Part shown: one piece after another, positions 246 through 59,053 of the stretch
Position numbering within the stretch: the first letter of the stretch is position 1
How the letters are laid out: each line of letters starts with the position of its first letter
Source of the DNA: Faecalibacterium sp. An121
GTDB taxonomy: Bacteria > Bacillota > Clostridia > Oscillospirales > Ruminococcaceae
Length of the DNA: 64,000 bases
Reading direction: 5' to 3'
Assembly (NCBI RefSeq): GCF_002160915.1
Contig: NZ_NFLM01000005.1
Location: forward strand, 62,001 to 126,000
Notes under the pieces: model-generated
What the model was told of the DNA's origin: nothing
What the model saw: the letters and a program-made list of their open reading frames with translations, nothing else
The model's database searches: none
Translations under genes and position numbers: made by a program

Positions 246-1070
246 ATGAACAGAAACAAGATGCGGGGCTGGCTGCTGGCGCTGCCCGCCCTGATCGCCC
301 TGGGGGTGGGGTATCTGCTCCCGCTGGCCATCGCTTTGTACAAGAGCCTTTTCGCCGGGATGAGCACAGATTTTGTGGGTCTGGAAAATTACGCCGATCT
401 GTTCGGAAATTACGCCTTTGGCTTGGCGGCCAAAAACCTGCTGCGGCTGTGGTGCATCGCCATTCCCCTGAATTTGGTGCTGGGCGTTCTGCTGGCGGTG
501 CTCTGCGTGGAAGCGGCAGGCCCCCGTCTGCGGCTGGCCTTCTTTTTCCCGGGTATCCTGCCGGCGGCCTGTGTGGTGATGGCGGCCGCCGAGGGAGTCA
601 GCCTGCTGGGTTGGGAAGACACCTGGACCTTTGACGCAGCGTCGGCTTTGGTCTGGCTGGCCATCGTCCTGTGGAAAACATTGGGCTATACGGTCCTGAT
701 CTGCGCCGCCTTTTTCGAGAGCATCCCGGCGGAGGTCACCGACGCCGCCCAATTGGACGGAGCGGGGTTCTGGCAATGCCTGCTGCGGGTGCGGCTGCCC
801 CTCATCGGGAGGGGGCTGGTTCTGAGTGCCATTCTGGTGGTTTTCAACGGCTACCGCTGTTTCCGGGAGGCCTATCTCATCGGCGGGGAGCACCCCCACG
901 AGGAACTGTACAGCTTGCAGCATTTTTTGCAGAACAACTTTGCCAACATGAACTACGCCCGGCTGGAAGCCGCCTCCATCCTGGTGGTGGCGGCGGTGCT
1001 GGCTGCCGGGCTGGCCATTCTGGGGATCTGGAAACGGTATCATGGGAGGACAGGCCATGCGGACAAATAG
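246..1070 (+). CDS. Sugar ABC transporter permease, MalF/UgpA type
   Basis: 274-residue integral membrane protein with about six hydrophobic segments, the first at residues 9-32. Near residues 158-180 it carries the EAA-type loop of binding-protein-dependent permeases (FFESIPAEVTDAAQLDGAGF), which docks on the ATPase. An AGGAGG ribosome site lies just upstream of the ATG. It overlaps the next permease by 14 bases, so translation is probably coupled. No ATPase gene follows, as is common for CUT1 importers that share one MsmK-like ATPase. The substrate is unknown. Confidence 0.88.
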   Translation: MNRNKMRGWLLALPALIALGVGYLLPLAIALYKSLFAGMSTDFVGLENYADLFGNYAFGLAAKNLLRLWCIAIPLNLVLGVLLAVLCVEAAGPRLRLAFFFPGILPAACVVMAAAEGVSLLGWEDTWTFDAASALVWLAIVLWKTLGYTVLICAAFFESIPAEVTDAAQLDGAGFWQCLLRVRLPLIGRGLVLSAILVVFNGYRCFREAYLIGGEHPHEELYSLQHFLQNNFANMNYARLEAASILVVAAVLAAGLAILGIWKRYHGRTGHADK

Positions 1071-1797
1071 ATTTTGGCAGCTGGGCCTGGCGGCGCTGGC
1101 CGTCTGCTTCCTGGCGCCCTGCGTCCTGTTGGTCCTGCCGCTGGCGGGACAGCCGCCGGAAACGCTCTGGCAGGCGGTTTCCGCGCCGGACTATCTGCGC
1201 GCCTACCGCAATACGCTGCTGCTGGCGCTGGGCGGCGTTCTGGTCCAGACGGGCGTGGCCCTGCCCGCCGGCTGCTTTCTCGCCAGGCTGGCGCCCGGAC
1301 GGGTCCGGCAGGTATGCCTGGCGCTCTGCCTGCTGCTCATGCTGCTGCCCCAACAGGCCCTTATGCTGCCCCAGTATCTGCTGCTGCAAACGTTTGGCCT
1401 GCTGGATACCCTGGCCGGCCTGTTGCTCATGACCGCCTTTCAGCCTTGGATGGTGCTGCTGTTCTGGTTCGGCACCAGCCGCATCGACCGGGAACTTTTC
1501 GATGCGGCCGCCTGTGACGGCGCGGCGGGCCTCTCCTTCTGCCGCCGGATCTACCTGCCGCTGATGGCTCCCTATCTGGCAGCCGCGGCGCTGCTGTCCA
1601 TGGCGGAAAGCTGGAATCTGCTGGAGCAGCCCATGATCTTCCTGCAGCAGCGGGCAAACGATCCGCTGTCCATCCTTTTCTCCCGGCTGCCCGGGGCCAG
1701 CCCGGCCCAAAAACTCTTTGCCGGGGTGCTGTTTGCCCTGCCCCTGGTCATCCTGTTTGGATTGGTCGCCCGCAGCAGCCGTCCGCCCCGTGCATAA
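1057..1797 (+). CDS. Sugar ABC transporter permease, MalG/UgpE type
   Basis: 246-residue partner permease with about six membrane segments. The EAA loop is at about residues 145-165 (SRIDRELFDAAACDGAAGLS). The ATG at 1057 is chosen over the in-frame ATG at 1042 because GGAGGA at 1045-1050 is then correctly spaced and the overlap with the upstream permease stays short. It is the last gene of the importer operon. It probably pairs with the MalF-type protein to form the channel for an unidentified sugar or oligosaccharide. Confidence 0.88.
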   Translation: MRTNRFWQLGLAALAVCFLAPCVLLVLPLAGQPPETLWQAVSAPDYLRAYRNTLLLALGGVLVQTGVALPAGCFLARLAPGRVRQVCLALCLLLMLLPQQALMLPQYLLLQTFGLLDTLAGLLLMTAFQPWMVLLFWFGTSRIDRELFDAAACDGAAGLSFCRRIYLPLMAPYLAAAALLSMAESWNLLEQPMIFLQQRANDPLSILFSRLPGASPAQKLFAGVLFALPLVILFGLVARSSRPPRA

Positions 1798-1872
1798 GCC
1801 CGCCGGGTCTGCGCAAAATATACGTTTTGTATAATACATAGTATCCATTACGCACCGGCTGTGCCGGGCACG

Positions 1873-1901
1873 TTGCATCCCCCTGCGGCCTGTGATACAA
1901 T
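1873..1901 (+). promoter_or_regulatory. Sigma-A promoter for the 1983-2390 gene
   Basis: TTGCAT at 1873-1878 and TACAAT at 1896-1901 are separated by 17 bases, and the gene's AAGGAG site follows about 65 bases downstream. This is a near-consensus match. No operator is obvious. Confidence 0.6.
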
Positions 1902-1982
1902 AACAGCGTATGCGGCCCCAGGCCGCCGCTGAATTTCCGGGCCGGCCTCTGCCGCCCTGCAAGCACAAGGAGCAATCAAACT

Positions 1983-2390
1983 ATGTGGATCGAACTGAAC
2001 CGCCGCTGCGACACCGACATGGGCGACCACGAGGATGTGGAGCTGAATCCCTGCCAGATCGACACCTTTGTGGCCGAGCTGGTGGGACAGGAGGACGGGC
2101 GCACCCTCTACTGCACCGCCTGCTGGACCCCCTTCATGCCGCAGGTGTACTCTTTTTCGGTGACCGACGAGTCGGTCTATGGCTGGATCGTGGACTATGA
2201 GCGGGAGGACAACGGCCAGCTGGCCGCCATCCGGGCCCGGGGGCCGGTGAACTGCGAGGCCGACGAGGACTACGACGGCCCCTACGCCGAGCAGTTCCGC
2301 CAGCTGATGCGGATGCTGTCCGACGCCGCATCCAAAAGCGGCTACCGCACCGAGACCTACGACTCCTCCGACGATCTGGACGCCCTGTAA
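1983..2390 (+). CDS. Hypothetical acidic protein, 135 residues
   Basis: I do not recognise a named family. It is a soluble, acidic protein with no signal peptide or membrane segment. It has a CTACW motif near residue 44 and ends in an Asp/Glu/Ser-rich tail (YDSSDDLDAL). AAGGAG sits ten bases before the ATG, a good promoter lies upstream, and a strong terminator follows at 2443, so it is a single-gene transcript. Codon use matches the neighbours. The function is unknown. Confidence 0.75.
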   Translation: MWIELNRRCDTDMGDHEDVELNPCQIDTFVAELVGQEDGRTLYCTACWTPFMPQVYSFSVTDESVYGWIVDYEREDNGQLAAIRARGPVNCEADEDYDGPYAEQFRQLMRMLSDAASKSGYRTETYDSSDDLDAL

Positions 2391-2442
2391 GGCACGGCGC
2401 TTCCCCGGCCTTCCGCTGAAAGGCCGCCTTTGCAGACAAACC

Positions 2443-2496
2443 AAAAGACCAGAGCCCGCCCGGCCAAAAGGCCTGACAGCTCTGGTCTTTTCTTTT
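2443..2496. terminator. Bidirectional rho-independent terminator
   Basis: AAAAGACCAGAGC (2443-2455) pairs perfectly with GCTCTGGTCTTTT (2479-2491), with T-runs on both strands. It ends the short plus-strand gene and the minus-strand PTS/esterase operon. Confidence 0.9.
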
Positions 2497-2530
2497 GGGG
2501 ATCATCCCCCAGCACAAGGCGAGGTAAGCT

Positions 2531-4225
2531 TTACTTGCTCATCATCAACTCATACAGCGCACGGTCAAAGTCCACCTTGCATTCCGACTTGACATCAAAC
2601 ACCATGGTGTTGTGCTCGGCAGAGGTATAGGGTTTCCACTTCAAACGCCAGGTCGAAGGATCGCCATTTGCCATAAAGGCAGCCAGCGCATCCGAGACAG
2701 AGTCAGCCATCTTCCGGGCGCCCTTCTCGTCGCCGCGCATCATGTACATCACGGTATCCAGAGAGTTGAACCAGAATGGGATATCCGCGGTATGGCACAT
2801 GGTCTGCCCTCCAAAGAAGGGCATCACATATACATCGATGTAATTGTACACTTCCACACCGTTTGCATTCAGCGCAGCCAGAACGCCGTTGGGCTCAATG
2901 AGGCCCCAGCGGGACAGGCCGGAGAAGCCGCCCATGTCGTTCAGCCACAGGGCGTGGCCCAGGCTGCGGTCGGGATAAGCTGCACGGAAGGCGGCAATGA
3001 ACGCGTCTGTCTTGTCGCCGTATTTGGCACGCAGACGGTTGGCTGCATCGTCATCGGTGATCCTGGACAAGTCGGCAGATTCGTCCTGCTCATTGATCAG
3101 GGGCTTCGTATTGGCGTTGAACTCCGAGAAAGCCGTGCCAAAGATCCATTTGCGCTGGGCAGCATAGGGGTTGACTGTACCGTTCTCGTCCACCATGGGG
3201 CTCTCAAAAGTGCCGTTGCCGTAGCAGGCAGCCCAGTTGCAGCCCGCCTCGGTAGATGCATAGTACAGCTCCTCGTACGTCATGCCAGTCAGCCTTTCGG
3301 CCACTTCTTCCTTTTTCAGACCCAGATAGTCCACCAGTTTCCGGGTGTTGGCCAGGCCGGATTCTTTGGTGTCGCTGTATGTAGACATCGCGCCGCTCAT
3401 GACGAAGACCTTGTTGAACAGCCCCACCGTGTTGGACATACATGCCAGAGTGGTAACTTTTGTACCGCCGCCGGACTGACCCAGGATGGTCACGTTGCCG
3501 GGGTCGCCGCCAAAGTTTGCAATGTTGTCATGCACCCACTGCAGAGCCACCACACAGTCCTCAATACCAGCGATCGCACTGTTCTTGTATTCGTCGCCAT
3601 ATTCGGACATATCCAAAAATCCCAGAACATTCAGCCGGTGGTTGACAGAAACGAACACTGCATCTTCACGCTCCGCAAAGTACTGACCGGTATAGCATGC
3701 CAGCTCGCTGGAAGCACCGTTGCTCAGGCCGCCGCCGTGGAAGAACACCAGGACGGGCTTTGCACCAGTCAGGCTTTTGGTCCATACGTTCAGATACTGG
3801 CAGGTCTCGTTGGCCACCATGTCAGCCGCGCCGGACGGCGTGCGGAACTCCGTGCCATTGATGGTGCCTGTACCATTCAGGCACCGGTCCTGCGGAGATA
3901 CAGGACCATAGACCATGGCGTTCTGCCAGCCGTTGGGATAAGCCTTGATCGGCTGCGGGCTCTGGAAGCGCTTTGCCTCCGCATACTGGATCCCGCGGAA
4001 AGTATACATTCCCTGGTCCTCATAGCCGATCACCCGACCGGCCGTTACATTGACAGATGCCATCCGGATGGGATCTGTGCCGCCCAGTTTCAGGTCTATG
4101 CAGTTTTCTTCTGCATTAGCCGACGCCTGCGCAGCCGAGGCTATCATCCCAGTGCTTCCAACCAGTGCAGCAACGCCTGCTGCAGCTGAAGCCTGAAGAA
4201 AATTACGGCGTGACAGTTTTTTCAT
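2531..4225 (-). CDS. Tat-exported type-B carboxylesterase
   Basis: 564-residue alpha/beta-hydrolase of the para-nitrobenzyl esterase/cholinesterase family. The start MKKLSRRNFLQ gives a twin-arginine signal peptide with a likely AxA cleavage site near residue 37 (AQASA|NAEE). The oxyanion-hole motif HGGG is at 163-166. The nucleophile elbow is GQSGGG with Ser251, where the family more often has GESAGG. GGAAGGA precedes the start. It is the last gene of the bglA-EIIBC-esterase operon. I infer that it removes acyl groups from plant-derived glycosides outside the cell before PTS uptake. The true substrate is unknown. Confidence 0.88.
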   Translation of the reverse strand: MKKLSRRNFLQASAAAGVAALVGSTGMIASAAQASANAEENCIDLKLGGTDPIRMASVNVTAGRVIGYEDQGMYTFRGIQYAEAKRFQSPQPIKAYPNGWQNAMVYGPVSPQDRCLNGTGTINGTEFRTPSGAADMVANETCQYLNVWTKSLTGAKPVLVFFHGGGLSNGASSELACYTGQYFAEREDAVFVSVNHRLNVLGFLDMSEYGDEYKNSAIAGIEDCVVALQWVHDNIANFGGDPGNVTILGQSGGGTKVTTLACMSNTVGLFNKVFVMSGAMSTYSDTKESGLANTRKLVDYLGLKKEEVAERLTGMTYEELYYASTEAGCNWAACYGNGTFESPMVDENGTVNPYAAQRKWIFGTAFSEFNANTKPLINEQDESADLSRITDDDAANRLRAKYGDKTDAFIAAFRAAYPDRSLGHALWLNDMGGFSGLSRWGLIEPNGVLAALNANGVEVYNYIDVYVMPFFGGQTMCHTADIPFWFNSLDTVMYMMRGDEKGARKMADSVSDALAAFMANGDPSTWRLKWKPYTSAEHNTMVFDVKSECKVDFDRALYELMMSK

Positions 4226-4269
4226 GGTGGATCCTTCCCTTCTTCTCATTTGTACATCATCGTTTTTTG

Positions 4270-4297
4270 AACGCCGCAGCCCGGAGACTGCGGCGTT
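4270..4297. other. Strong hairpin between EIIBC and esterase genes
   Basis: AACGCCGCAG (4270-4279) pairs perfectly with CTGCGGCGTT (4288-4297). The T-rich tail is on the plus strand. On the transcribed minus strand no U-run follows, so it is more likely an mRNA stability or processing hairpin than an operon terminator. Confidence 0.55.
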
Positions 4298-4325
4298 GCT
4301 TATTCTTTTTGGGGCAGCGGTCCGC

Positions 4326-5732
4326 TTATTCGCCTTCCTCCAGCTTGCCCTGTTTTTTCCACACGCCATACAGCACAAAGCTGACGACAAAGGAGACCAC
4401 CATGGCGATCACAGTGCCGATGCAGGCGTTGATCAGGTTGGCCATGCTGTCACCGCCGATGTAAGCGGGCAGGACCAGCAGGCCGGGAGAGCCGGAAGCG
4501 TAGCGGCCGACACCGGTCAGGCCCAGGTACAGACCGCCCACACCGCCGCCGATCATGGCAGAGATCAGCGGATAGATGAACTTGAGGTTGATGCCGTACA
4601 GCACCGGTTCGGTGATGCCCAGCACGCCGGTCAGACCGGCGGACATGGCCAGCTGCCGGGTATCCTTGTTGCGGGTGCGCAGGCCAACCGCCAGACCGGC
4701 AGCGCCCTGGGCCACGTTGGAAGCCAGCATACCAGGGCCGACCACGGTGTCAAAGCCGGCAGTCGCCAGGTTGTTGACGCCAATGGGGATCAGGCCATAG
4801 TGGGTACCGGTCATGACCAGCAGCGGGTTGAGGGTGCCGACCAGGGTGGGCACAGCCCAGCCTGCGTTGACCTCCAGCCACTTGAAGAAGGCAGCGATGA
4901 CATTGCCGATCCAGGTGCCGATGGGGCCCAGGGCCAGGATGGTGACAATGCCTGCGGCCAGCAGGCTGGCCAGGGGTACGGTGAAGAACTTGACCGCATT
5001 GGGGGAGATCTTCTGTACGGCGTGTTCAACGACAGACATGAACCACACACCCAGCAGGATGGGCACCACCGAGGAGCTGTAAGACGCCAGGGTGACCGGC
5101 AGGCCAAACAGGCTGACCGAGCCGCCCGCGTCCTTGGCCGCGTTGATCAGATCCACAAATCCCGGGTAGACCAGCACACCGCCCAGGGCCATGGCCACAT
5201 ACTGGTTGCATTTGAAGGTCTTGGCCGCAGAGCTGCCCAGCAGGATGGGCAGGAAATAGAACGCGGCGTCTGCAATGGCGTTCAGGATGACATAGGTCTG
5301 GGAGCTGCTGTCCAACAGACCGGTCACAGTGCCCAGCGCCATCAGGGCCTTGAGCAGGCCGGCGCCGGTGATGGCCGGGATGATGGGCTGGAACATGCTG
5401 GCAATGTACTCCAGTACGCTGCTCAGCTTGCTTTGGTTCTTCTTGTTTTTGCTGTCAGGCTTCTCATCCACCGGCTTGGCAGCCTCAAAACCGCCCAGAA
5501 CCACCACTTCCTGATAGACCTGCGGCACGTCCGGGCCTATGACTACTTGGTACTGTCCGCCTGCATGGATGACGGACATGACCCCTTTGGTCTTTTTCAG
5601 GGCTTCGGTGTCAGCCTTGCTGACATCTTTCAGGGTGAAGCGCAGACGGGTGGCGCAGTGCAGCACCTTGTCCACGTTCTCTTTGCCGCCCACCTTTTGC
5701 AGGATGACTGCGGCCAGCTGTTTGTAGTCCAT
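4326..5732 (-). CDS. PTS beta-glucoside-type transporter, EIIBC
   Basis: 468 residues. An N-terminal EIIB domain (about 1-85) has the phosphocysteine motif HCATRLRF. A Ser/Asn/Lys-rich linker at about 110-120 leads to a long hydrophobic EIIC domain. There is no EIIA domain at the C-terminus, so phosphate must come from a shared EIIA-Glc-like protein. The start at 5732 follows AGGAGG. The neighbouring 6-phospho-beta-glucosidase points to an aryl-beta-glucoside or cellobiose-like substrate, although the EIIC also resembles sucrose/trehalose permeases. Confidence 0.9.
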   Translation of the reverse strand: MDYKQLAAVILQKVGGKENVDKVLHCATRLRFTLKDVSKADTEALKKTKGVMSVIHAGGQYQVVIGPDVPQVYQEVVVLGGFEAAKPVDEKPDSKNKKNQSKLSSVLEYIASMFQPIIPAITGAGLLKALMALGTVTGLLDSSSQTYVILNAIADAAFYFLPILLGSSAAKTFKCNQYVAMALGGVLVYPGFVDLINAAKDAGGSVSLFGLPVTLASYSSSVVPILLGVWFMSVVEHAVQKISPNAVKFFTVPLASLLAAGIVTILALGPIGTWIGNVIAAFFKWLEVNAGWAVPTLVGTLNPLLVMTGTHYGLIPIGVNNLATAGFDTVVGPGMLASNVAQGAAGLAVGLRTRNKDTRQLAMSAGLTGVLGITEPVLYGINLKFIYPLISAMIGGGVGGLYLGLTGVGRYASGSPGLLVLPAYIGGDSMANLINACIGTVIAMVVSFVVSFVLYGVWKKQGKLEEGE

Positions 5733-49602: not shown

Positions 49603-50475
49603 ATGTCCAAGATCACTCGCCGCAATTTCCTGAAAGTCACCGGCGCGGCTGCCGCAGCCGCCGCCCTGGCCGCCTGTGGCGCAGGCGGCTCCGCCAACGG
49701 CACCCAGTTCCACATCGCAGTGCCCAACGACACCACCAACGAGGCCCGCGCCCTGCGGCTGCTGGAGAAGAACGGCTTCTTCACCCTCAGCGAGGACGCC
49801 GGCATCACCGCCACCAAAAACGACATCGTGGAGAATCCCTACAATGTGGTGATCGACGAGGTGGAGGCCGCCCAGGTGCCCAACGTGCTGCAGGATGAGG
49901 ACTACGCCGTCATCAACTCTAACTATGCCATCCCCGCCGGGCTGGACCCCATGACCCAGGCGCTGGCCATGGAGGACGGCACCTCCGACTACGTCAACGT
50001 GCTGGTGTGCAAGGAGGGCAACCAGGAGCTGCCCCTCATCAAGGCCCTGGCCGCCGCCCTGCAGAGCCAGCAGGTGAAGGACTATATGGCCGAGCAGTAC
50101 AAGGGCGCCGTGGTGTCGGTGGTGGAAAACCCCACCGACGGCTACGATCCCACCGTGGACTACGAGGCCCTGAACGGCCAGACCATCAGCTGCGCCGCCA
50201 CCCCCGCCCCCCACTGCGAAGTGCTGGAGGTGTGCGTGCCCATCCTGGAGGCTAAGGGCATCACCCTGGATATCCAGGAGTTTGATGACTATATCATCCC
50301 CAACACGGTGGTGGAGGACGGCCAGGTGGACACCAACTACTTCCAGCACCAGCCCTACCTGGACGACTTCAATGAGCAGAACGGCACCCACCTGGTGACG
50401 GTGGCAGGCATCCATGTGGAGCCCATGGGCATCTACGGGGGCAAGCAGACCAGCCTGGACGCCATCTTTGGCTGA
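49603..50475 (+). CDS. metQ: MetQ-type methionine-binding lipoprotein, circularly permuted
   Basis: 290 residues. The N-terminus has a twin-arginine-like TRRNFLK and a lipobox LAAC (Cys25). All MetQ blocks are present but in swapped order. Residues 36-173 are the normally C-terminal half (AVPNDTTNEARALRLL, IVENPYNVVIDEVEAAQVPN, YAVINSNYAIPAGL). After a linker (176-192) come residues 193-290, the normally N-terminal half (AATPAPHCEVLEV, the segment ending VDTNYFQHQPYLD, HVEPMGIYGGKQTSLD). It lies under a Met T-box and is followed by metN and metI, so it should deliver methionine to that importer. Confidence 0.9.
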   Translation: MSKITRRNFLKVTGAAAAAAALAACGAGGSANGTQFHIAVPNDTTNEARALRLLEKNGFFTLSEDAGITATKNDIVENPYNVVIDEVEAAQVPNVLQDEDYAVINSNYAIPAGLDPMTQALAMEDGTSDYVNVLVCKEGNQELPLIKALAAALQSQQVKDYMAEQYKGAVVSVVENPTDGYDPTVDYEALNGQTISCAATPAPHCEVLEVCVPILEAKGITLDIQEFDDYIIPNTVVEDGQVDTNYFQHQPYLDDFNEQNGTHLVTVAGIHVEPMGIYGGKQTSLDAIFG

Positions 50476-55585: not shown

Positions 55586-56161
55586 ATGGACATCATGCAG
55601 CTTCTCGCCACCCGCCGCACCTACCGCCGGTTTGATCCAAAGCCGGTGCCTGCCGACGTGATCCACGATATGGTGGAGGCGGTGCGGCTGTCCTCCTGCG
55701 GGGCCAACCGCCAGGCCGTGCGGCTGGTCATCGTGGCCCGGCCCGAGGATGTGGCCCGGGTGCAGCCCCTGGTCAAATGGGCGGCCTACCTGCCTGCCGA
55801 ACAGGGCGTCCCGGCCCCCGGCCAGCAGCCCACCCTTTTTGTGGCAGTGGTGCAGGACACCACCATCCCCGGCGACCTGGATACCGACACCGGCATCGCC
55901 CTGGCCAACCTGACCCTGGCCGCCTGGGCCAAAGGGGTGGGCAGCTGCATCATGGGTGCCATCGACCGGCCCCGCCTGGCGCAGCTGCTGGGTCTGGCCG
56001 AGACCGAAAAACTGCACTCGATGGTGGCCCTGGGCTACCCGGCCCACGCCAGCCATGTGGTCCCCATGACCGAGAGCACCGGCATCAAGTACTACCTGGA
56101 CGAGAACCGGGATTACTGTGTGCCCAAGCGCAGTGCAGAGGAGATCGCACGGTATCTGTGA
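55586..56161 (+). CDS. Nitroreductase-family FMN enzyme
   Basis: 191 residues. The N-terminal ATRRTYRRFDPKPVPADVI is the FMN-binding start of the family. SSCGANRQAVRLVIV, the GIALANLTLAAWAKGVGSC dimer helix and a segment with MVALGYPA follow. It reduces an unknown substrate with NAD(P)H. AAAGGAG lies before the ATG, 22 bases after the peptidase stop. It is the last gene of the methionine-linked run, ended by the hairpin at 56191. Confidence 0.88.
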   Translation: MDIMQLLATRRTYRRFDPKPVPADVIHDMVEAVRLSSCGANRQAVRLVIVARPEDVARVQPLVKWAAYLPAEQGVPAPGQQPTLFVAVVQDTTIPGDLDTDTGIALANLTLAAWAKGVGSCIMGAIDRPRLAQLLGLAETEKLHSMVALGYPAHASHVVPMTESTGIKYYLDENRDYCVPKRSAEEIARYL

Positions 56162-56362: not shown

Positions 56363-56391
56363 TTGACATTTGATTTTGTAAAAACTATACT
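56363..56391 (+). promoter_or_regulatory. Promoter of the amino-acid ABC operon
   Basis: TTGACA (56363-56368), a 17-base AT-rich spacer, TATACT (56386-56391). This is one of the strongest matches in the window. Confidence 0.88.
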
Positions 56392-56500
56392 ACAAATTGT
56401 TGCCGGGAAGATGCCCGGTGTTGTCGCCGCATCGTCTGTTTGCGGCCTGCGGGCCCAGTGCCCGTCTTATGCTTTAGGATAACAAGAGGAGTGTATGAAT

Positions 56501-57382
56501 ATGAAGAAGATCTCTCGCCGCAGCTTCCTGCTGGCCGCAGGTATGTCCGCCGCCCTGGTGCTGACCGCTTGCTCCAGCACCAGCTCTTCCACCGCTTCCA
56601 GCACCGCCAGCTCTGCTGCGTCTGCTGCATCCGACGCCGCTTCCGCTTCCACCCAGGCCATCCAGAGCCTGGAGGATCTGGCCGGCAAGACCGTTGGCGT
56701 CCAGCTGGGCACCACCGGCGACCTGCTGATGAGCGAGGAAGTGGGCGAAGGCGAGGACAAGCTGGGCATCGCCGGCGTGGAGCAGTACAACAAGGCCGCC
56801 GACGCCGTGCAGGCCCTGCTGACCAACAAGATCGACGCCGTGTGCATCGACGACCAGGTGGCCAAGAACTTTGTGGCTGCCAACCCCGATGAGCTGACCA
56901 CCCTGGACACCGCTTTCGCCGAAGAGAGCTACGCCATCGCCGTCAGCAAGGACAACGCTGACCTGACCGAGCAGCTGAACGGCGCCATCGCCGAGCTGAA
57001 AGAGGACGGCACCCTGGACGCCATCCTGGACAAGTACATCGCCAAGGTGGAGGGCGCCGAGGGCTATGTCTCCCCCGAAGGCACCGAGTACCCCAACGGT
57101 ACCCTGGTGATGGCCACCAACGCCACCTTTGATCCCTATGAGTACATCGAGAACGGTGAGATCGTGGGCATCGACGCCGAGTTTGCCAAGGCTCTGTGCG
57201 ACAAGCTGGGCTATGACCTGCACATCGAGGATATGGAGTTCGACTCCATCATCGCGGCTGTCAACAGCGGCAAGGCCGACTTCGGCATGGCCGGCATGAC
57301 CGTCACCCCCGAGCGTCAGGAGCAGATCGACTTCACCGATACCTACTGCACCGCCGCCCAGTCCATCATCGTGCTGAAGTAA
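56501..57382 (+). CDS. Polar amino-acid-binding lipoprotein (GlnH/ArtJ-type), circularly permuted
   Basis: 293 residues. ISRRSFLLAAG gives a twin-arginine-like signal; the lipobox is LTAC (Cys24), followed by a Ser/Ala-rich linker. Residues ~55-180 are the normally C-terminal half (SLEDLAGKTVGVQLGTTGD, YNKAADAVQALL, IDAVCIDDQVAK, GAIAELKEDGTLDAILDKYI). A new linker of about 20 residues leads to ~200-293, the normally N-terminal half (LVMATNATFDPYEYIENGEI, IIAAVNSGKADFGMAGMTVT, PERQEQIDFTDTYCTAAQS). The ATG at 56501 is better spaced from GAGGAG than the one at 56495. Permease and ATPase genes follow. Confidence 0.9.
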   Translation: MKKISRRSFLLAAGMSAALVLTACSSTSSSTASSTASSAASAASDAASASTQAIQSLEDLAGKTVGVQLGTTGDLLMSEEVGEGEDKLGIAGVEQYNKAADAVQALLTNKIDAVCIDDQVAKNFVAANPDELTTLDTAFAEESYAIAVSKDNADLTEQLNGAIAELKEDGTLDAILDKYIAKVEGAEGYVSPEGTEYPNGTLVMATNATFDPYEYIENGEIVGIDAEFAKALCDKLGYDLHIEDMEFDSIIAAVNSGKADFGMAGMTVTPERQEQIDFTDTYCTAAQSIIVLK

Positions 57383-57462: not shown

Positions 57463-57496
57463 GGACAGAGCCCAGGTGCGAATCCCGGCTCTGTCC
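57463..57496 (+). terminator. Attenuator-like hairpin between binding protein and permease
   Basis: GGACAGAGCC (57463-57472) pairs perfectly with GGCTCTGTCC (57487-57496), followed by CTTCTCTTT. The loop GTGCGAATCCC resembles a tRNA T-loop. Partial termination would favour the binding protein over the membrane parts. Confidence 0.65.
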
Positions 57497-57576: not shown

Positions 57577-58287
57577 ATGGCATTTTTCCAAAACCTATGG
57601 GAGGAACTTTCCAGCGAGTTCGTCTCCACCTTCATCGAGGAGCAGCGCTACCTGCTCTTCCTGAACGGCCTGAAAACCACCCTGATCGTTGCCTTTGCGG
57701 CAGCGGCCCTGGGCGTGGTGCTGGGCTTTATCATCGCGTACATCCGTACCACCCATGACCAGACCGGCCACCTGCGCATCCTGAACGGCGTGTGCAAGCT
57801 GTATCTGACTGTCATCCGCGGCACCCCCACCATGATCCAGCTGTTGATCATGTACTTTGTCATCTTCGGCTCGGTGAACATCGGCAAGGTGCCGGTGGCC
57901 ATCCTGGCCTTTGGCATCAACAGCGGCGCCTATGTGGCCGAGATCTTCCGCAGCGGCATCATGAGCCTGCCTCCGGGACAGATGGAGGCCGCCCGCAGCC
58001 TGGGCCTGAACTACACCCAGGCCACCTGGAAGATCATCCTTCCCCAGGCGGTCAAGAACGTGCTGCCCGCTTTGGGCAACGAGCTGATCGTCCTGCTGAA
58101 GGAGACCTCCATCAGCGGCTATATCGCCCTGCAGGACCTGACCAAGGCCGGCGACATCGTCCGCAGCCGCACATACAGCACCTTCTTCCCCTACATCTCG
58201 GTGGCTCTGATCTACCTGGTGATGGTGCTGTTCCTGGAGAAGCTGCTCAACCACATGGAAGGGAGGCTGGCCCGCAGTGACCGGTAA
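57577..58287 (+). CDS. Polar amino-acid ABC transporter permease (HisM/GlnP type)
   Basis: 236 residues with five membrane segments. The segments [40 protein letters not shown] and the coupling loop [20 protein letters not shown] (about 128-147) are typical of PAAT permeases. It works as a homodimer with the ATPase encoded next. GGAGGG precedes the ATG at 57577. It overlaps the ATPase gene by 11 bases. Confidence 0.93.
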
Positions 58288-59053
58288 ATCGACCGAAAAG
58301 ATCATCGAAGTACGCGGCCTGAAAAAGACCTACGGCGGCGAGAAAAAGCGCGGCTACAAGGGCCTGACCCCCACCCTGGACGTGCTGAAAGGCATTGACA
58401 TCGACATCTACCGGGGCGACGTGGTCTGCCTGATCGGCCCCTCGGGCTGCGGCAAATCCACCTTCCTGCGGTGCCTCAACCGGCTGGAAAAGCCCACCGG
58501 CGGCTCCATCAAGTTTGAGGGGGTGGAGGTGGACGAGGCCCACATCGACAAGCTCCGCCAGAAGATGGGGATGGTGTTCCAGCACTTCAATCTTTTCCCC
58601 CACATGACGGTGAAAGAGAACCTGTGCATGGCCCCCACCCTGCTCAACCTCAAGACCAAGGAGGAGGCCGCCAAACGGGCCGACGAGCTTCTGGCCCGGG
58701 TGGGCCTGTCGGACAAGGCTTCGGCCTACCCCGCCAGCCTGTCGGGCGGCCAGCAGCAGCGCATCGCCATTGCACGGGCCCTGGCCATGGACCCCGACGT
58801 CATCCTGTTCGACGAGCCCACCAGCGCCCTGGACCCCGAAATGGTGGGCGAGGTGCTGGCCCTGATGAAAGAGCTGGCCCACACCGGCATCACCATGCTG
58901 GTGGTCACCCACGAGATGGGCTTTGCCCGGGAGGTGTCCAACCGGGTCATCTTCATCGACGAGGGCGTCATCCAGGAGGACGAGCCGCCCCAGGAGCTGT
59001 TCGAGAACCCCAAGAACCCCCGTCTGAAAGCATTCCTCTCCAAAATGCTGTAA
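58277..59053 (+). CDS. Polar amino-acid ABC transporter ATPase (GlnQ type)
   Basis: 258 residues. Walker A is [10 protein letters not shown] (about 54-63), the signature [15 protein letters not shown], Walker [15 protein letters not shown] and switch His in VTHEMGFA. An insertion of about 15 residues ([16 protein letters not shown]) sits between the first strand and the Walker A, longer than in most GlnQ proteins. The start is GTG at 58277. A strong terminator follows. Confidence 0.93.

Follow-up and report, generated by a model that had tools for sequence, protein, structure and literature searches.

A circularly permuted amino-acid binding lipoprotein in Faecalibacterium sp. An121, probably a working transport receptor, and the likely repeated permutation of its relatives within one bacterial order

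In a stretch of 64,000 nucleotides from Faecalibacterium sp. An121 (the whole stretch analysed, here called the window), a gene for an amino-acid binding protein was described in an earlier note as circularly permuted, with the two halves of the protein in swapped order. The locus raises the question of whether a receptor rearranged in this manner can still serve its transporter, and of how the order of its halves came to be changed. We consider it probable that the window protein is a working SBP lipoprotein that serves an ABC importer of polar amino acids and is permuted at its first hinge (hinge 1), and that permuted relatives arose repeatedly across the order, most likely by way of tandem copies.

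The gene stands in an operon with an ordinary amino-acid permease and ATPase, both of which matched Pfam in unpermuted form, as the earlier note had stated. The features of the locus, all on the plus strand, are:

55586-56161, plus: nitroreductase-like gene (named from its sequence), the upstream marker of the conserved locus by synteny
56363-56391, plus: sigma-70-like promoter, TTGACA-17-TATACT, 11 of 12 positions (consensus scan)
56495-57382, plus: circularly permuted PAAT-family (SBP_bac_3) amino-acid binding lipoprotein, 295 aa (Pfam, PDB and six-frame matches)
56495-56656, plus: signal peptide, lipobox LTAC (Cys26) and Ser/Ala-rich tether, residues 1-54 (sequence read by eye)
56657-57043, plus: half B, being lobe 2, the second hinge crossing and the C-terminal part of lobe 1, residues 55-183
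57044-57091, plus: linker from the old C-terminus to the old N-terminus, residues 184-199 (sequence matches; pLDDT below 50 at model residues 136-152)
57092-57379, plus: half A, the N-terminal part of lobe 1, residues 200-295 (Pfam, PDB and half-profile matches)
57580-58287, plus: amino-acid ABC permease (BPD_transp_1), unpermuted (Pfam)
58277-59053, plus: amino-acid ABC ATPase, unpermuted (Pfam)

The reading frame of the binding protein is intact; 56501, formerly given as its start, is the second ATG, in frame with the ORF start at 56495. The Pfam TAT_signal profile matched the protein weakly, under its cut-off. One promoter-like site was found against a mean of 0.5 in shuffled sequences, and the site is by itself no evidence of function.

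Half A is the first half in canonical relatives and the last in the window protein, where its C-terminal IIVLK lies at hinge 1; half B is second in the relatives and first here. The SBP_bac_3 profile matched the window protein with an E value of 3.8e-37 (127.4 bits vs a curated cut-off of 26.4) in two stretches, residues 204-295 corresponding to profile positions 1-92, and in a six-frame scan the preceding half corresponded to profile positions 36-131. A search of the PDB gave 129 distinct sequences at E up to 0.001, the best being 4zv1, a solved ancestral binding protein. Residues 8-104 of the 4zv1 chain matched residues 200-295 of the window protein (83.8 bits) and chain residues 107-231 matched residues 54-182 (73.0 bits); both scores are far from chance, and the halves are swapped relative to 4zv1 with a gap of about 2 residues. 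The two matches place the junction between chain residues 104 and 107, which we take to be the first crossing between the lobes. Among the best 60 of the 129 PDB sequences, only 6h30 had a best stretch that spanned both halves. This is the GlnPQ SBD1-SBD2 tandem, in which the junction reads B-linker-A as in the permuted protein, whereas the tandem holds two whole canonical domains and the window protein one permuted domain. The order of the halves is B-A and not the canonical A-B, with the old ends joined and both halves homologous to the family, which bears out the permutation that had been read from the letters. Judged from these matches, the window protein is by ancestry a member of the PAAT SBP_bac_3 family and differs from it in topology. 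Annotation is affected, in that a Pfam search reports the protein as two fragments. The linker, formerly put at about 20 residues, is present and somewhat shorter, at 13 residues by the single-sequence match (186 to 200), 18 by a canonical profile and 16 by the boundaries listed above.

The permuted chain opens with lobe 2 and the C-terminal portion of lobe 1, continues through a flexible linker of about 16-18 residues, and ends at hinge 1. A canonical chain crosses between the lobes twice, and the permuted chain would cross once (at hinge 2); each lobe would therefore be one continuous segment. The permuted receptor would probably still close on its amino acid, by a single hinge, and hand it to the adjacent permease.

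Structure prediction with AlphaFold2 from 8 close orthologues gave a pLDDT of 37. A second model was made from 19 rows, in which canonical half-proteins were entered as separate, unchanged fragments; its mean pLDDT was 80 and its pTM 0.74, with low confidence at the first four residues, the loop 34-43 and the linker 136-152, and it had the two lobes that the earlier note expected, and a floppy linker. The 50 Foldseek matches listed for this model comprise binding proteins and ATP phosphoribosyltransferases, and none has a TM-score above 0.50 over the query length. Foldseek follows chain order; for 4zv1 and 4prs the fit was close (1.0 A) in a single stretch of 83-85 columns, matches over the full chain were loose (5-20 A), and single-domain TmArgBP domain-1 constructs fitted loosely (102 columns, 8.6-8.7 A). 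The pattern is one that a changed chain order would be expected to give, but it is no proof of the modelled fold.

An error at the junction of one assembly had been raised as a possibility and was not borne out, since permuted orthologues (77-96% identity) stand in 8 named Faecalibacterium records, 7 of them metagenome assemblies or uncultured and 1 Faecalibacterium sp. An122; one orthologue is cut by a contig end. Nor were all close relatives found to be canonical at the locus. Among 31 Faecalibacterium genomes, 16 had a full-length permuted match, 14 had the canonical order (13 confirmed on the ORF, and G014 by the order of its matches) and one (G018) had a partial match at a contig end. The halves of permuted and canonical proteins within the genus were 47-57% identical, and the canonical protein occupied the same locus as the permuted one in 5 of 5 canonical strains compared. 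A comparison of neighbourhoods took in Faecalibacterium stretches from 5 canonical and 6 permuted strains: in all 11 the genes for binding protein, permease and ATPase were consecutive, and the nitroreductase-like gene was upstream in 10, with no match in G015. Relative to the window, the 5 canonical strains had ATPases 86-88% and permeases 48-50% identical, and the 6 permuted strains had ATPases 79-94% and permeases 53-90% identical. Canonical Faecalibacterium permeases (L038, L041) fell among the partners of canonical proteins in the permease tree, and that of G020 (L034), the most remote of the permuted strains, fell among the partners of permuted proteins. From these identities and the permease tree, binding protein and permease appear to have been exchanged as a pair. 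The hinge-1 permuted form is also present in other genera of the family, and thus looks older than the genus. A pairwise variation of binding protein and permease between permuted and canonical strains, with the ATPase conserved, can be followed for example in L251, L252 and L255 against L256 and L259.

The window holds a second permuted binding protein, upstream of the first:

49603-50475, plus: binding protein of the MetQ/NlpA family (PF03180), permuted (Pfam, match to a solved protein, tree)

Residues 36-171 of this MetQ correspond to positions 99-234 of the PF03180 profile, and residues 190-287 align to the beginning of a MetQ-type protein of solved structure; this second case was upheld, together with the claim that the cut is at the corresponding hinge in both families. 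MetQ was matched in 30 of the 31 Faecalibacterium genomes, 29 times nearly full-length and permuted and once (G028) in two pieces; G024 (79% complete) had no MetQ match. The two pieces, at G028:C1:783554-784374, form a permuted MetQ gene with a stop between. Within the family, 59 of 148 genomes had a MetQ match, 10 full-length permuted and 49 split or partial, and 20 typed loci from those 49 were canonical. The 10 permuted rows occupy two places in the tree (one clade, p 0.034), which suggests that MetQ was probably permuted by two events. In one canonical MetQ (L144, G084) the leader at the N-terminus, GDGFDPNIDYAALAG, is similar to NPTDGYDPTVDYEALNG, the linker in the permuted MetQ of Faecalibacterium, and is perhaps a trace of a former arrangement.

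A survey of the binding proteins of this genome, as had been proposed, found swapped halves in one of four SBP_bac_3 proteins and in the sole PF03180 protein among the families searched; the 9 SBP_bac_8 matches and 1 NMT1 match each formed one unbroken stretch in the usual order. For PBP_like_2 there were three matches, one near-full and two partial. A permuted PBP_like_2 protein was suspected from a partial match and rejected by eye, as the ORF starts normally; the third match, a short one, is in a LysR-like ORF.

The window protein was used as the query against genomes of the family (297), the order (394) and the phylum (398). Matches at E up to 1e-28 were obtained in 135 of the 394 order genomes and 10 of the 398 phylum genomes, numbers that are not counts of permutants because many of the matches are to canonical halves. 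The ORFs of 223 loci, in several of which one gene may recur, were typed with three part-profiles (A, B1 and B2) built from 24 canonical proteins. The resulting counts are not frequencies, since the relatives were drawn from the best matches to a permuted protein: 104 ORFs were type I (B1-B2-A, permease fusions included), 46 canonical (A-B1-B2) and 17 type II (B2-A-B1), canonical tandem arrays had two units in 4 ORFs and three in 1, permuted tandem arrays had two units in 5 ORFs and four in 2, and 10 ORFs were irregular or partial strings. On viral contigs no permuted relative was found; two loci matched, both without swapped halves.

Cut points were read on a canonical model of 221 columns and fell at three places across the order: at hinge 1, after the first helix of lobe 2, and before hinge 2. 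In most type I proteins the alignment opens at about 94-100, continues to the end of the model, and resumes at 2-4 to close at about 95-99; in a few it opens at 103-106, their first lobe-2 helix being unlike that of the model. The second place was seen in L173, L175-L177, L182 and, separately, L112, which start at about 107-109 and carry the segment after hinge 1 at the C-terminus; in L174, of the same group as the first five, the alignment extends into the signal peptide. For type II proteins the first aligned position is about 158-170 and the last about 164-168. Permutant linkers, from the old C- to the old N-terminus, were 13-25 residues long and mostly 16-18. In our reading of the topology, the cut at hinge 1 and the cut before hinge 2 would both give continuous lobes joined once. 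The habit of permuting that the earlier note ascribed to the lineage holds in that three cut sites occur in the SBP_bac_3 family and MetQ is permuted as well; it is order-wide and not specific to this genome.

The tandem arrays bear upon how the order of halves was changed. Linkers between the domains of canonical arrays were 13-18 aa, a length close to that of the permutant linker. Pfam searches of 8 proteins showed a permease domain ending 4 of 4 long tandem proteins and one single-unit fusion, and 3 single binding proteins without a permease domain, as expected. We think it most likely that the permutants arose from in-frame tandem copies whose outer halves were lost. This origin, suggested in the earlier note, is favoured by arrays in both the canonical and the permuted frame; a half-way intermediate of the permutation was not found among the surveyed relatives. 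Several arrays were long. The 1285-aa product of L079 (G065, 1214-5071, minus strand) has four consecutive permuted binding domains and then a permease domain, the 1223-aa product of L222 (G324, 620-4291, plus) has four consecutive permuted binding domains, and the 993-aa product of L116 (G680, 298-3279, plus) has three canonical binding domains, which cluster in the tree, and a permease domain. In L084 (G213), neighbouring ORFs at 1252-2313 and 2401-4221 have the half orders B-A-B and A-B-A, and look like the two parts of a single, divided tandem array.

Dereplication left 141 of 196 units for the trees. The main tree was built without 17 permuted tandem units, L126 and L001, and the AU tests also without L082 and L086; further rows were thinned or omitted in later AU tests and in those with permease columns. 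With 122 rows, the IQ-TREE tree needed 12 changes among the three types, and its starred branches by themselves require 7 or more changes for type I and 3 or more for type II; reversion to the canonical order is indistinguishable from permutation in these trees. AU tests on the binding protein rejected one clade for all type I rows (p 4e-15), for all type II rows (p 0.0027) and for all canonical rows (p 0.0015, 86 thinned rows). One type II clade was also rejected with permease columns added (p 1.2e-5, 68 rows) and by the permease alone, where the printed p of 1.5e-74 is surely extrapolated. The AU results depend on which rows are included. L112, a row chosen after inspection of the tree, was separate only when the permease was added (p 0.019 vs 0.355 without), and the permease partners of L118, L120, L163 and L112 were among the partners of canonical proteins. 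At the level of alignments and trees, three classes of cut point and more than one permutation event are demonstrated, and five events in the amino-acid family are likely.

A wider proposal, which we offer tentatively and regard as somewhat doubtful in its full extent, is that Type II binding proteins are re-cut in this order, with tandem arrays as a reservoir of new orders, cuts at or beside the hinges, and receptor and permease spreading together. A cut at or beside one hinge crossing would leave each lobe continuous and one hinge strand in place. At least five events would have occurred in the amino-acid family (hinge 1; L112; the L118/L120/L163 group; the main type II clade; and a re-permuted clade nested therein), with two further events in MetQ. 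A flytrap with one hinge would alter both the opening of the receptor and its docking, and might therefore spread with a matching permease.

We consider it unlikely that there was instead one ancient permutation, followed by reversions and recombination between paralogues, with cut points that drifted. Such a history agrees with the hinge-1 type I rows, for which one clade was not rejected without L098, L112 and L107 (p 0.146) or, with permease columns, without L112 only (p 0.28); it agrees as well with tests confined to type II and canonical rows (type I omitted), in which one clade was not rejected (p 0.348; by halves, p 0.443 for half A and p 0.61 for half B, the constrained tree scoring higher in the latter). 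Against it, a cut near model position 165 rather than 96 or 107 has about 60-70 residues changing ends, which is beyond trimming, while drift between the cuts at 96 and 107, about 11 residues apart, is harder to exclude. The permease, a separate gene, likewise speaks against one type II clade, and any reversion would itself be a permutation.

The permuted protein L098 (G576) touches both this history and one in which the lobe-2 fragment of one gene was fused to the lobe-1 fragment of another, with no tandem copy. Its A half is nearest to a canonical protein (80% identical to L185, G614) and its B half groups within the type I clade, so swapping of halves does happen, and by its halves L098 looks like a recombinant of both forms. 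The pairing of L098 with L185 (99/99 support) had been taken for a very recent permutation, which was rejected because the B half groups with type I. L098 was not counted as an event, since its halves differ in kin and one clade with the type I core was not rejected (p 0.475). Fusion of the end of SBD1 to the start of SBD2 in a GlnP-like tandem would yield exactly the permuted order. As a general origin, such shuffling nevertheless seems unlikely to us, as both halves of the window protein share their nearest kin (L012, L031), and trees of half A only and half B only (91 rows) needed similar changes, 10 and 11. Loss of outer halves from tandem copies is the origin that we prefer.

All 21 columns that are invariant in 30 canonical rows were kept in the window protein. 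Every one of them was also retained in 16 of 16 type II rows, and for type I the lowest figure for any column was 59 of 66 rows (L082, L086, L001 and the tandem units were left out of this count). The family-invariant residues include Thr, Arg and Asp at positions that serve to bind the amino acid. Over the mature part of the protein, dN/dS was 0.05-0.43 against 8 orthologues (Nei-Gojobori), and the window protein is under purifying selection. That the swapped protein is a decoy, a sensor or a decaying copy and not a transport receptor is very improbable, given this selection, the retention of every invariant residue, the operon with permease and ATPase, and the fusion of permuted domains to a permease in L077, L079 and L087.

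Permutation within the binding-protein superfamily is already known. TpMglB-2 (Tp0684) of Treponema pallidum, named 'Type Ic', is a natural permutant that binds glucose and changes shape; the shift of its N-terminus may, its authors propose, be favoured by anchoring (PMC4990184). It resembles the window protein in being natural, permuted and lipid-anchored, and it has kin in Gram-positive gut bacteria, whereas it has the Type I sugar-binding fold, with a cut within one lobe that adds a fourth crossover, and is a case of one family and one cut. Here the families are of Type II, for amino acids and methionine, and the cuts at or beside hinges would, in our reading, reduce the crossovers to one; the window protein is not a 'Type Ic' protein, its sequence kin being the SBP_bac_3 amino-acid binding proteins. 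OpuAC, ProX (glycine-betaine) and others have been reported as circular permutants by structure, similar folds being linked by permutation as here, with less than 24% identity and an old split (PMC2395249), as opposed to 47-57% between the two forms within one genus. Among the literature matches listed, which cover few subscription journals and were judged by titles and abstract openings, no natural permutants of amino-acid or MetQ binding proteins were found, and no report of recurrence at several hinge-side sites, in two Type II families of one order, near tandem arrays. No word beginning with 'permut' occurs in PMC2861598 or PMC9602780. The published natural permutants of binding proteins that we found are far diverged, and their origin is hard to test. 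In the present case canonical and permuted kin at one locus, three cut points, arrays in both frames and the proteins' own transporters coexist, and the model of duplication and truncation, and the role of two hinge strands in ABC import, are thereby made directly testable. Repeated permutation within one order is a natural experiment on the rewiring of a protein without loss of function. Ancestral binding proteins, probably of the same family, have reportedly been circularly permuted by engineering for FRET sensors; those permutants are man-made, whereas the window protein is natural and has its own transporter.

Between the genes for the binding protein and the permease, a segment at 57463-57496 of the window was absent from the terminator scan output and gave no tRNA with ARAGORN. 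It is a perfect 10-bp inverted repeat (GGACAGAGCC/GGCTCTGTCC) around a loop of 14 bases, and the loop gives the impression of a tRNA T arm.
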